Shown piece after piece: positions 7,564 to 45,577 of a stretch of 45,577 nt of DNA. The notes under the pieces are model-generated. The model saw only the letters and a list, made by a program, of their open reading frames with translations. It was not told the origin of the DNA and searched no databases. Each line of letters begins with the position of its first letter. The stretch's first letter is position 1. The position numbers and the translations under genes were made by a program. Source of the DNA: Lachnospiraceae bacterium (lineage in GTDB: Bacteria; Bacillota; Clostridia; Lachnospirales; Lachnospiraceae); the NCBI GenBank assembly GCA_014804485.1, contig JAAUZT010000052.1, positions 1 through 45,577 of the forward strand, in the 5' to 3' direction.

Positions 7564-7601
7564 TAACACAGATATTATTGTTCAGGCATATTCAATACTC
7601 A

Positions 7602-7753
7602 GCACAGATGGAAGTTAATATCTTAAGGAGCCCCTTAAAAAGCGTCAGCGCTTAACGAGGTTATGAGTTGCAAAGCAACTCACGAGTTTAGCGTCTGCTA
7701 CGCTTTTTACGGAGCGAAAGCGCGGCTCCGTAGATATTAACTTTCATCTGTGC
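7602..7753 (+). repeat. 152-nt intergenic palindromic repeat, copy 1
   Basis: The ends are complementary over 22 bases with a single G-T pair (7602-7623 with 7732-7753). Inside, GGAGCC (7627-7632) can pair with GGCTCC (7724-7729), AAAAAGCG (7637-7644) with CGCTTTTT (7701-7708), CGCTTAAC (7649-7656) with GTTTAGCG (7686-7693), and an apical GAGTTGC-AAA-GCAACTC hairpin occupies 7665-7681. There is no reading frame, transposase or terminal T-run. Two further copies and one remnant occur in this window. Confidence 0.9.
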
Positions 7754-7800
7754 GGACGGCTTAGATAAACTGTGGTTTAGATGAACCAGATAGAATAGCA

Positions 7801-7835: not shown

Positions 7836-8125
7836 AGAAACTTATCAGATATAAGATGCAAGCGACTAATACGGAATATGGACATTGAAAGGGAAGAGTA
7901 CCTTTGTCAGAAGCAGACAGAGAGGAACCGCCGTCGGCTGGAAGCGGTTCTTGCGAAGAGAATGGGAAGTGCGCCCCGGAGTCCGGCTTATGCCCGGCTG
8001 ACCCCGTTACAGGTCTTGAGTGAAAGAATGCAGATGTATTCTTTAAGTAGAGTGGAACCGCGGATCATTTCGTCTCTATTTCCGAACCGGAATAGGGCGG
8101 GTACCGCGGTCTTTATATTTCATAG
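7836..8125 (+). promoter_or_regulatory. T-box riboswitch leader, probable cysteine (TGC) specifier
   Basis: The conserved T-box core AGAGTGGAACCGCGG is at 8049-8063. It is preceded by a stem III hairpin (AAAGAAT 8023-8029 with ATTCTTT 8038-8044). TAGAG (8048-8052) pairs with CTCTA (8074-8078) in the antiterminator. The competing terminator pairs ACCGCGG (8057-8063) with CCGCGGT (8104-8110), followed by a T-rich stretch. Stem I features include GAAGAGTAC near 7892 and an apical CAGAGAGGAACCG segment. The likely specifier codon is TGC at 7970-7972, in GGGAAGTGCGCC, which fits the downstream cysE and cysS. Uncharged tRNA-Cys would be expected to allow read-through. The leader is open in the cysE frame, but it is regulatory RNA, not an N-terminal extension. 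Exact ends are approximate. Confidence 0.88.
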
Positions 8126-10729: not shown

Positions 10730-10825
10730 AGATAGCAAAGTAAAGTCAGCAGAGTATAGACTCAATGAAGAAATATAAAGTCAACCAAAAGGAGATATAG
10801 CTAACGAAAGGGATATCACATAATA

Positions 10826-19908: not shown

Positions 19909-20000
19909 GCTCAGAGGGAAGGCAATATCTACGGAGCCGCGTTTGCACTCCGTTGGTTCCGATCTGTATTGGCGAACTGTTGCTTGACGCTTTATTGTTT
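19909..20000 (-). repeat. Decayed, truncated remnant of the 152-nt palindromic repeat
   Basis: Plus-strand CAATATCTACGGAGCCGCG at 19923-19941 is the reverse complement of the 3' end of the repeat family. The 22-base arm 19909-19930 begins GCTCAGAGGG like copy 3 and ends AATATCT like all copies. Similarity fades beyond about 19960 and the matching second arm is not found. The rest of the 505-base gap 19670-20174 shows only the PBP promoter and ribosome site and no gene. Confidence 0.65.
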
Positions 20001-20174
20001 GGCGTAGTAGTATTAAAAAGTGGGCAGGCTCATGCTTGAGTCTGGCTGCGTATAAGAACTACATTGTGTAGATTATAGGTAATTGTTCAGAAGGTGCTTC
20101 GTAATTGTGAAGAACAGGGTTTTGAACAGTTACGATTATAGATGTATTATAAACGGAGTGTACAAAGATATCAT

Positions 20175-23049: not shown

Positions 23050-23069
23050 TTGATAAAATCGAATATGTA

Positions 23070-23250
23070 ACATACAGGTGTCAAAACAGCGTAAGAAGTG
23101 CGTGAACGCTGGTTTTGGTGAAAAGGGAAACAGGTGCAAATCCTGTACGAACTCGTCACCGTAATTAGGGAGCAGAAGCCAATATGTCACTGGGAAACCG
23201 GGAAGGCGGCGGATGCGATGATCTTTAAGCCGGGAGACCTGCCTGAATGT
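23070..23250 (+). promoter_or_regulatory. Cobalamin (B12) riboswitch
   Basis: P1 pairs ACATACAGG (23070-23078) with CCTGAATGT (23242-23250), with one mismatch. CAAAACAGCG pairs with CGCTGGTTTTG in the next stem. The core includes GGTGAAAAGGGAA, GGTGCAAATCCTGTAC, and the CACTGGGAAACCGGGAAGG segment. The B12 box appears as AGCCGGGAGACCTGCC (23228-23243). A terminator lies about 100 bases downstream, so high adenosylcobalamin should switch off the operon at the level of transcription. Confidence 0.95.
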
Positions 23251-23353
23251 TGTACGGAAACGTTTGTTTCAGACCACGAGTAACTGGTTGTACGTTTGAA
23301 CTTGCAGAAGCGCAGTTGTTTATGAAGTGCATTCTGTAGGTTTGTTTGCGTAT

Positions 23354-43307: not shown

Positions 43308-43459
43308 GCTTGGACAGAAGCCAATATCTTAAGGAGCCCCTTGGAGAGCGTCAGCACTTAGCGAGGTTATGAGTTGCCCCGCAACTCACGAGCTTAGTGT
43401 CTGTTACGCTCGGAACGGAGCGAAAGCGCGGCTCCGTAGATATTGGCTTCTGTCCAAGC
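43308..43459 (+). repeat. 152-nt intergenic palindromic repeat, copy 2
   Basis: The 22-base ends (43308-43329 and 43438-43459) are perfectly complementary, although their sequence differs from copy 1. The apical hairpin GAGTTGC-CCC-GCAACTC and the GGAGCGAAAGCGCGGCTCC segment are kept. The element fills the gap between the convergent cobalamin operon and typA; it lacks a T-run. Confidence 0.9.
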
Positions 43460-43482: not shown

Positions 43483-45324
43483 TTATTTCTTACTCGCCGC
43501 AGAAATAGCCGCCCTCTTTCTAAGCGTCGGATCCAAAATCTTCTTACGTATCCTGATCGTCTTAGGAGTCACCTCCAACAGCTCATCCGTATCAATAAAT
43601 TCCAAAGCCTGCTCCAGACTCAAAACCTTCGGCGGTGTGAGCCGCAGCGCCTCGTCCGCGCTGGAGGAACGGGTGTTGGTGAGCTGCTTCTTCTTGCAGA
43701 CATTCAGCTCGATGTCCTCGCCCCGTCCGTTCTGTCCCACGACCATGCCGGAATATACCTTAGTGCCCGGTCCGATGAAGAGTGTGCCCCGCTCCTGTGC
43801 GTTGAAGAGACCGTAAGTGATCGCTTCGCCTGCCTCAAAAGCGATAAGAGATCCCTGTTTGCGGTACTGGATATCTCCCTTGTAGGGACCGTAGCCGTCG
43901 AAAATGCTGTTCATAATGCCGTTACCCTTGGTGTCCGTCATGAACTCGCCGCGATAGCCGATCAGGCCGCGGGAAGGAATGGAGAACTCCAGACGGCTGT
44001 ATCCGCCGGAGGCAAGTCCCATGTTCAGAAGTTCACCTTTGCGCTGGCTTAACTTTTCAATGACAGTTCCGGAGAATTCCTCCGGCACATCTATATAGCA
44101 CAGTTCCATAGGCTCCAGTTTCTTGCCGTTTTCATCTGTTTTATATAATACTTCCGCCTTGCTGACTGCAAATTCATACCCCTCACGGCGCATATTTTCA
44201 ATCAGAACGGACAGATGCAGCTCGCCCCGTCCGGAGACCTTGAAGGCTTCCGTAGTCTCTGTTTCTTCCACGCGGAGGGAAACATCGGTATTTAACTCTC
44301 TGAACAGTCTGTCGCGCAGATGGCGGCTGGTCACATACTTGCCTTCCTGCCCGGCAAGAGGAGAGTCGTTGACGATAAAATGCATGGCGATGGTCGGCTC
44401 GGAAATCTTCTGGAACGGAATCGGCTGCGGATTTTCGGGAGAACAGAGGGTGTCTCCGATATGAATATCCGAGATGCCGGAGATCGCCACGATGGAGCCG
44501 ATTCCGGCTTCATCGACGTCTACTTTGTTTAAACCGTCATATTCATATAATTTGCTGATTTTGACTTTGCGCATCTTGTCGGGGTCGTGGTGATTGACAA
44601 TGATCACTTCCTGATTAACTTTGACGGAACCGTTGTCTACTTTGCCTACCCCGATACGTCCCACGTACTCGTTGTAGTCGATGGTACTGATCAGCACCTG
44701 TGTGCCGGCGTCGGGATCGCCCGTGGGTGCCGGAATATGCTCCAGAATCGTGTCGAAAAGGGGAGTCATGTTGCCGCCCTTCACGGTGAGCTGTGTGCTG
44801 GCGGTTCCAGTCTTGGCGGAAGCATAGACGAAGGGACAGTCTAACTGCTCATCGTTGGCATCCAGATCCATGAAGAGTTCCAGTACTTCATCTACCACCT
44901 GGACAGGTCTTGCTTCCGGACGGTCGCATTTATTAATACATACGATTACGGATAAGTCCAGTTCCAACGCTTTCTTCAGAACGAATTTCGTCTGGGGCAT
45001 GGGACCTTCGAAAGCGTCCACGACGAGGATGACACCGTTCACCATTTTGAGCACACGCTCCACCTCGCCGCCGAAGTCGGCGTGTCCGGGAGTGTCGATG
45101 ATGTTGATCTTTACACCCTTATACATAACGGCCGTGTTCTTGGACAGGATCGTGATACCGCGCTCTTTCTCGATATCATTAGAGTCCATGACACGCTCCG
45201 CAACTTCCTGGTTTTCCCTGAAAACACCGCTCTGTTTTAACAGCTCGTCTACCAGCGTCGTCTTGCCGTGGTCAACGTGAGCGATGATTGCTATATTTCT
45301 TACATCTTCTCTTGTCTGGTTCAT
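43483..45324 (-). CDS. typA: Ribosome-associated GTPase TypA/BipA
   Basis: This 613-residue translational GTPase has AHVDHGKTT (G1), ITILSKN (G2 region), DTPGHADFGGEVER (G3) and NKCDRPEARP (G4). The EF-G-like domains III and V and the TypA-specific C-terminal domain (GYDGYGPYKGDIQYR-type segment, IFIGPG-like GTLFIGPGTKVYSGMVVG) follow. It binds the ribosome and is linked to stress and low-temperature ribosome assembly. The ATG used is at 45324, where homologues begin (MNQTREDVRN); the ribosome site is AAAGG. An in-frame start 14 codons upstream has no site. Confidence 0.96.
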   Translation of the reverse strand: MNQTREDVRNIAIIAHVDHGKTTLVDELLKQSGVFRENQEVAERVMDSNDIEKERGITILSKNTAVMYKGVKINIIDTPGHADFGGEVERVLKMVNGVILVVDAFEGPMPQTKFVLKKALELDLSVIVCINKCDRPEARPVQVVDEVLELFMDLDANDEQLDCPFVYASAKTGTASTQLTVKGGNMTPLFDTILEHIPAPTGDPDAGTQVLISTIDYNEYVGRIGVGKVDNGSVKVNQEVIIVNHHDPDKMRKVKISKLYEYDGLNKVDVDEAGIGSIVAISGISDIHIGDTLCSPENPQPIPFQKISEPTIAMHFIVNDSPLAGQEGKYVTSRHLRDRLFRELNTDVSLRVEETETTEAFKVSGRGELHLSVLIENMRREGYEFAVSKAEVLYKTDENGKKLEPMELCYIDVPEEFSGTVIEKLSQRKGELLNMGLASGGYSRLEFSIPSRGLIGYRGEFMTDTKGNGIMNSIFDGYGPYKGDIQYRKQGSLIAFEAGEAITYGLFNAQERGTLFIGPGTKVYSGMVVGQNGRGEDIELNVCKKKQLTNTRSSSADEALRLTPPKVLSLEQALEFIDTDELLEVTPKTIRIRKKILDPTLRKRAAISAASKK

Positions 45325-45383
45325 GGTTGATCTTGCCTTTCTTAATTTTATGAACAAAAAACTCACTTTTACAAAACCTATTA

Positions 45384-45474: not shown

Positions 45475-45577
45475 GCTCAGAGGGGAGTTAATATCTGAAG
45501 GAACCCCTCAAAAAGCGTCGGCACTTGACGAGGTATCTCACGAGTCTAGTGTCCGCTACGCTTTTTGCGGAGCGAGA
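45475..45577 (+). repeat. 152-nt palindromic repeat, copy 3 (cut by window end)
   Basis: It starts with GCTCAGAGGGGAGTTAATAT and continues with AAAAAGCG, then GCACTTGAC paired with GTCTAGTGT, and CGCTTTTTGCGGAGCGA. The apical hairpin is shortened compared with copies 1 and 2. The 3' arm lies outside the window. Confidence 0.85.

Follow-up and report, generated by a model that had tools for sequence, protein, structure and literature searches.

Introduction

REP and REPIN elements are repetitive palindromes, and the attC sites of integrons have conserved ends and a variable middle. The described systems closest in kind to the element analyzed here are the ERIC, RUP, and NEMIS repeats. According to one published review (PMC2229807), the ERIC elements of enterobacteria (IRU, RU-1) are dispersed repeats of about 127 bp with orientation-dependent effects on mRNA; RUP of the pneumococcus is a short dispersed repeat of 107 bp, which has ends in common with IS630-Spn1 and targets TA; and the NEMIS (Correia) elements form two length classes, distinguished by the presence of an internal piece, stem-loops having been proposed in their transcripts. 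Palindromic candidate RNAs have also been described in gut microbiomes, where 250 of them were listed, including 20 that are not predicted terminators; the main-text examples considered here are from Bacteroidetes, and the full set may overlap with the present family (Fremin and Bhatt, 2021; PMC8040213).

The element studied here lies in a stretch of 45,577 nucleotides (the window), which is contig C52 of a Lachnospiraceae genome assembly (GCA_014804485.1, here G000; 3.97 Mb, 85% complete). The original prediction described 152-nt palindromic repeats with covarying stems, interpreted them as a maintained RNA or DNA hairpin and assigned them to no named family. A dispersed, fold-conserved repeat family does stand, without any Rfam 15 match and occurring only in Lachnospiraceae as sampled. 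The likeness to ERIC is one of layout only, both being dispersed repeats of a similar kind, whereas the hypervariable but re-paired arms, the conserved core, the GNRA loop, and the occurrence only in Lachnospiraceae among the genomes sampled set the present element apart. In contrast with RUP, no partner insertion sequence (IS) was found in the examined loci, nor any clear duplication. It shares with NEMIS the existence of two length classes, but here a 15-nt apical hairpin makes the difference, and one site can carry different classes in different species. Some of the hairpins occur in tandem and are laid out like BIMEs, but in contrast with the REP and REPIN elements and their RAYT, no Y1 transposase was found in the element's own genome. 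Integron attC sites were set aside on layout only, their plan being the reverse of the conserved core and variable arms present here. No title or abstract opening among the literature matches listed names this element. The reading that we favor, at about even odds, is that the copies are short dispersed intergenic elements of the ERIC or RUP kind, probably non-autonomous, kept as a fold and not as a sequence and recognized by that fold.

Architecture of the Element

Copy 1 (7602..7753, + strand, the strand with the GNRA loop) and copy 2 (43308..43459, +) are complete elements of the long type, each 152 nt in length. As had been described, both have complementary ends of 22 nt which differ in sequence between the two copies, with one G-T pair in copy 1. 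The fold opens with the long basal stem P1, followed by an internal loop and the short stem P2; next come a stem P3, which ends in a conserved hairpin, and a hairpin P4 capped by a GNRA tetraloop. In copy 1, all on the + strand, the 5' arm of P1 (7602..7623), which is hypervariable between copies, pairs with the 3' arm at 7732..7753; the 5' strand of P2 (GGAGCC, 7627..7632) pairs with 7724..7729, this opposite side reading GGCTCC or, in some copies, GGCGAC, which introduces GA/AG mismatches; the core hairpin, CTTNNN-GA-GG...C-GA-NNNTAG, occupies 7651..7691; and P4 lies at 7714..7723, with GAAA as its loop. The unit is bordered by family-conserved ends, namely a AATACCCA-like end of the repeat unit on the left (7593..7601, +) and a GTCCGTCTTAGATAA-like end on the right (7754..7770, +).

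The sequence of P1 is almost free, and the conserved hairpin is defined by a U-U mismatch (T-T in the DNA), three covarying pairs (NNN/NNN), and a GA conserved on both sides, where it stands opposite GA. In the own genome, little or no variation is seen in the T-T mismatch, the internal loop, and the GA/GA, and the core motif is present in 144 of 156 distinct rows across the relatives, some of the remaining 12 being opposite-strand rows. The inner helices named in the original prediction were indeed found to change in concert while the same T-T mismatch is kept, and the replacement of CAG/CTG by CGG/CCG in copy 3 is real. The core hairpin is also the module common to the long element and to the tandem form described below. 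Small hairpins of roughly 23-30 nt are present within the P3 stem of some copies, with an identical insert at two loci of the relative G067 (L396 and L414, the orthologues of L028 and L030), in G069 at the site of window position 19909, and at L235.

The P4 loop, which follows GGAGC, is a GNRA tetraloop in 142 of the 144 copies counted (three alignments, 166 rows of which 156 are distinct, the 12 without the core motif having been dropped); of the other two, one contains an N and one was misparsed. The loop types are GAAA (61), GAGA (48), GCAA (13), GGGA (9), GGAA (8), and GCGA (3). Since a T-A closing pair replaces C-G in L230 and L111, the GNRA register is favored over the AAAG register drawn by RNAalifold.

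Rfam 15 gave no match over the element for the copies in the window and no family over the hairpins at 18 further loci. With a lax threshold, three divergent copies gave three sub-threshold names only, one of which lies on the hairpin (mir-71, 22 of 50 bits). With no match above threshold, the element belongs, as predicted, to no named family of this collection.

Copies in the Window and in Related Genomes

Two further copies are present in the window: copy 3 (45475..45577, +), which is without the apical 15-nt hairpin and is cut by the contig end, and a truncated remnant (19909..19954, -), the site of which holds a full copy in G067, G081, and G066 and a copy with a small insert in G069. Orthologues of copy 2 are present in the relatives G027, G067, and G069, and none in G081. 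The other near-full-length matches to copy 1 in its own genome have E-values from 1e-66 to 3e-23 (BLASTN). With a covariance model (R1) built from an alignment of 28 copies (A1), 96 rows were obtained in this genome, corresponding to about 57 places and 39 opposite-strand echoes; the places include partial copies at contig ends, two of which could be one copy. After removal of the opposite-strand echoes among the rows listed, the 79 rows of G067 give at least 65 places and the 85 rows of G069 at least 72. In all three genomes, two lengths prevail, 152 and 137 nt, the difference being the 15-nt apical hairpin. Three places in the own genome measure just 67-68 nt and resemble the core-deleted copy present at site 1 in G081. 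Contigs end within copies at window positions 45475-45577, in two other contigs of G000 (C6:1-111 and C28:8-72), and in G069 (C20:1-82); the copy numbers are therefore uncertain, the assemblies being broken by the repeat.

At L102, L103, L106, L107, and L199, two elements of different subfamilies are neighbors, oppositely oriented and separated by about 44-200 nt. The window also carries a T-box leader (7876-8080), about 120 nt downstream of copy 1, a cobalamin riboswitch (23059-23260), and a further short repeat (20080-20133), the inverted ends of which are TAACTGTTCA-like; in G067, this type of repeat is present as an insert, of about 75 bp, where the window has positions 10735-10747.

The covariance model matches 35 of 61 genomes, which comprise the own genome and 34 of 36 from the same genus, and none of the 24 from other families of the order. 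A pattern for the core hairpin was found in at least 120 stretches in named genomes; the 80 stretches listed are labeled mostly as Lachnospiraceae or its genera, with some labeled as Clostridia and one MAG as Bacteroides (L279). A form with a five-nucleotide loop, which is absent from the own genome, where the loops are longer, occurs in 60 of 299 genomes of the family, with up to 55 per genome, as against four matches to a reversed control pattern. In 291 genomes of the class, ten of which belong to the same family, there was a single match among the other 281, in which the pairs are not formed; the control pattern had two. One core pattern had no match in viral contigs, and copy 1, the only copy searched, had none in plasmids and phages. 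As far as sampled, the family is confined to Lachnospiraceae and is at background level elsewhere.

Tandem Hairpins and Gene Neighborhood

In other Lachnospiraceae, the core hairpin also occurs in intergenic tandem pairs or arrays, mostly with a spacing of 44-46 nt (L232, L239, L244, L258, L270, L294, and L415, the last on contig C5 of G342). At L270, the tandem hairpins sit between two tRNA genes beside the 23S and 5S rRNA. The existence of this form bears on an alternative in which the hairpins have been recruited by the host as cis-acting RNA, where a Lachnospiraceae protein would bind hairpins located between cistrons or in the 5'/3' UTR and in this way set the stability or processing of mRNA, the long element and the tandem hairpins being two architectures of the same signal. 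The tandem clusters are mostly sense to the right-hand gene (13 of 17 in a first set and 11 of 14 in a second), several of them lie 4-15 nt after a stop codon, and some lie directly behind a TATAAT-like box, as this alternative would have it. The left-hand genes speak less clearly, the clusters being sense to them in 14 of 18 cases in the first set and in 6 of 14 in the second. The 137- and 152-nt elements, on the other hand, are more often antisense, no constant neighboring gene was noticed in an unsystematic look, and the form searched for is missing from 239 of the 299 family genomes, so that we consider a recruited cis-acting RNA unlikely.

The orientation of the long elements was determined relative to the GNRA strand in 132 copies, with simple ORF calls and with orthologues included: the left- and right-hand genes are (-,-) in 66, (+,+) in 27, (-,+) in 28, and (+,-) in 11. 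Among the 77 copies with a gene reading towards the right end of the element, 52 have its stop codon at a distance of 0-51 nt; for genes reading towards the left end, the figure is 12 of 38, and a stop codon lies within this distance of either end in 63 of the 132 copies, about half. The gene at 43483-45366, for example, has its stop codon next to copy 2. From these orientations and stop-codon positions, a read-through mRNA would more often carry the strand complementary to the GNRA strand, which tells against a role of the latter as RNA. Copies 1 and 2 were scanned for regulatory signals: neither has an intrinsic terminator (a stem followed by a T run), copy 2 has no promoter-like site, and the sole one found near copy 1 is downstream (7801).

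The pairs themselves give a modest lean to the GNRA strand, with 69 G-U against 39 A-C in 78 copies of fixed length. This excess of G-U is weak for a strongly selected RNA stem, as is the ratio of 17 to 12 between orthologues, and choosing the strand from G-U versus A-C according to gene orientation was not decisive.

Covariation of the Paired Positions

In the 28 aligned copies, 98.4% of the 1483 cells pair, as against 91.2% when the 3' partners were shuffled and 33-45% with slid structures, over which the structure used has an advantage, being derived from the same sequences. Changes on both sides were observed at 27 of the 53 pairs, versus 10.5 in the shuffles, none of 500 reaching as high a number. 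One of the five control measures was not clear, namely that of further pair types (45 versus 41.7 in the shuffles, matched by 32 of 500). The collection of copies by covariance model and the covariation test that had been suggested with the original prediction were both run, and on copies from across the genome they yielded an excess of paired changes; the possibility that other copies would be free of such an excess was not borne out.

For the three free pairs of the core hairpin, 311 distinct contexts were compared: 922 of the 933 cells are Watson-Crick, six are G-U, one is A-C, and four are other combinations. The type AGC/GCT, which one fetching pattern fixes, accounts for 181 of these contexts; among the 130 others, 119 are fully Watson-Crick. 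The outer arms of 69 divergent copies have a mutual identity of 34%, and the arms pair at 95% within a copy versus 46% between copies, the lowest within-copy value (44%) being due to a register shift; this set includes a few overlapping records. Because these 69 copies were picked by a model which rewards pairing, the test was repeated on 39 copies chosen by the sequence of the core and P4 only. With at most two mismatches allowed, their longest stem has a median of 22 nt (range 10-35), versus a median of 12 nt and a 95th percentile of 16 nt when the arms were swapped; five of the 39 lack a GNRA loop and could have been picked wrongly.

Comparison of Orthologous Copies

By their flanks, copies from different close relatives could be matched into 38 pairs, of which 17 were set aside because they differ in length or contain N, and 21 were counted. 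In these 21 comparisons, 66 pairs had changed on both sides (54 still pairing) and 52 on one side (17 still pairing), and the unpaired sites had changed in 69 of 966 cases. Three comparisons are doubtful, since L197 was matched with the second of two neighboring copies in G067 and L004 and L016 match the same locus in G069. In the other 18, each covering 53 pairs, there were 35 changes on both sides (31 pairing) and 34 on one side (13 pairing), with 46 of 828 unpaired sites changed, whereas independence at the rate of the unpaired sites predicts about three and 100, respectively. The two comparisons that involve copy 2 account for 17 of the 35 (nine and eight); their flanks are 94-97% identical, and one replacement event may explain all 17. 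The comparisons between orthologues overlap, and no probability is attached to these counts. The one-sided departures between orthologues consist of 17 G-U, 12 A-C, and 22 others, and selection against single mismatches in the stems looks weak.

The position of the copies is stable on the whole. When 32 copies of the own genome were tested against the examined part of G067, 20 had a syntenic block, in which 16 copies are present with their core, one is core-deleted (L069), and three are absent; two of the 16 (L016 and L061) fall on one place in G067. None of the 16 is inverted, and one adjoins an extra copy. In G027 and G081, the element at site 1 lies in inverted orientation, its flanks included. 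The core is retained at 15 distinct places shared with G067; at four of these (L001, L028, L063, and L065), its length class has switched, whereas the outer stem and the flanks are still those of the orthologue. One identical small extra hairpin occurs in two of the switched cores, at different loci of G067. It seems that cores move between copies, and this would explain part of the double changes without intermediates.

Swapped cores of this kind, together with the fact that double changes are about as numerous as single ones between orthologues and that no intermediates exist at pairs 46-96, 48-93, and 49-92 among the 28 copies, are what would be expected if the arms were corrected from one another, hairpin-primed repair or template switching copying arm to arm and copies being converted by one another, without any selection on the fold. 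Such a process should, however, also remove the mismatch of T with T, the GA/GA, and the internal loop, all of which are nearly invariant, and it leaves the GNRA loop unexplained; we regard templated correction as quite doubtful. The idea that the hairpin is maintained holds as regards the fold, while the way in which it is maintained must be qualified in view of conversion and the weak selection on single mismatches.

Losses and Movement of Copies

The three absences in G067 can be deletions. At L009 and L018, the differences between sites join short direct repeats (GACG and ACGC), which is what the deletion of a palindrome would produce, and what looked at first like precise, transposition-like excision was discarded as such, a slippage deletion between these repeats being sufficient. 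At L007, TAAC occurs twice versus once in G067, which could be an insertion with a 4-bp duplication and is also explicable by deletion. Movement is probable from the dispersal of the copies. Ends resembling TTACTGTTCA / TGAACAGTAA, candidate terminal inverted repeats outside the palindrome, are present in many copies and degenerate in others. A scan of the examined loci of at least 4 kb, in which four seed words were used and pairs at a distance of 0.8-4 kb had to agree in 20 of 30 letters, found no autonomous IS with matching ends. A pre-existing target repeat as insertion site was rejected, the joined flank motif having one match, with eight mismatches, in 1.83 Mb, and this match being itself the right-hand half of an element.

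Movement in the REP manner, with a Y1 (HUH) transposase acting on the element as single-stranded DNA, would account for a fold with a conserved loop and mismatch, and Y1 domains do occur in 9 of 15 element-bearing genomes, but it is very improbable, since there is none in the own genome (85% complete) or in G027, only fragments or broken frames in G067 and G069, and no hairpin in seven of the nine Y1 neighborhoods. In the other two, a hairpin pair lies about 1.7 kb away (L447) and a single motif-like match without the GAGG loop about 300 bp away (L454). With none of the nine flanked by hairpins, a REP/RAYT system was rejected.

Discussion

The non-autonomous, fold-recognized dispersed element could work as follows. 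A factor encoded elsewhere would bind the conserved hairpin when the unit is single-stranded, the bound form being most likely an RNA of the GNRA strand, and P1 would need only to be double-stranded. Copies might spread rarely as non-autonomous elements, would be tolerated best just after stop codons, and would be homogenized through conversion between copies. A more specific reading, which we put forward tentatively and think somewhat unlikely, is that these are family-wide mobile elements recognized via RNA structure: a factor of the Lachnospiraceae would read the U-U/GA-GA hairpin and the GNRA loop, leaving the basal stem free in sequence and keeping the fold, and the module would have been reused in tandem as a regulatory hairpin.

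Palindromic repeats are usually known by their sequence, whereas here it is the fold that is conserved, the stem sequence being nearly free. The repeats limit the assembly of these genomes, several contigs ending inside copies. With roughly 57-72 places per genome in three close species, about half of them just after genes, the family provides many natural replicates, which are useful for distinguishing RNA structure from DNA hairpin biology and from arm-to-arm correction as the means by which palindromes are kept paired. The conserved fold is a candidate binding site for a putative family-specific protein, in a bacterial family common in animal guts.
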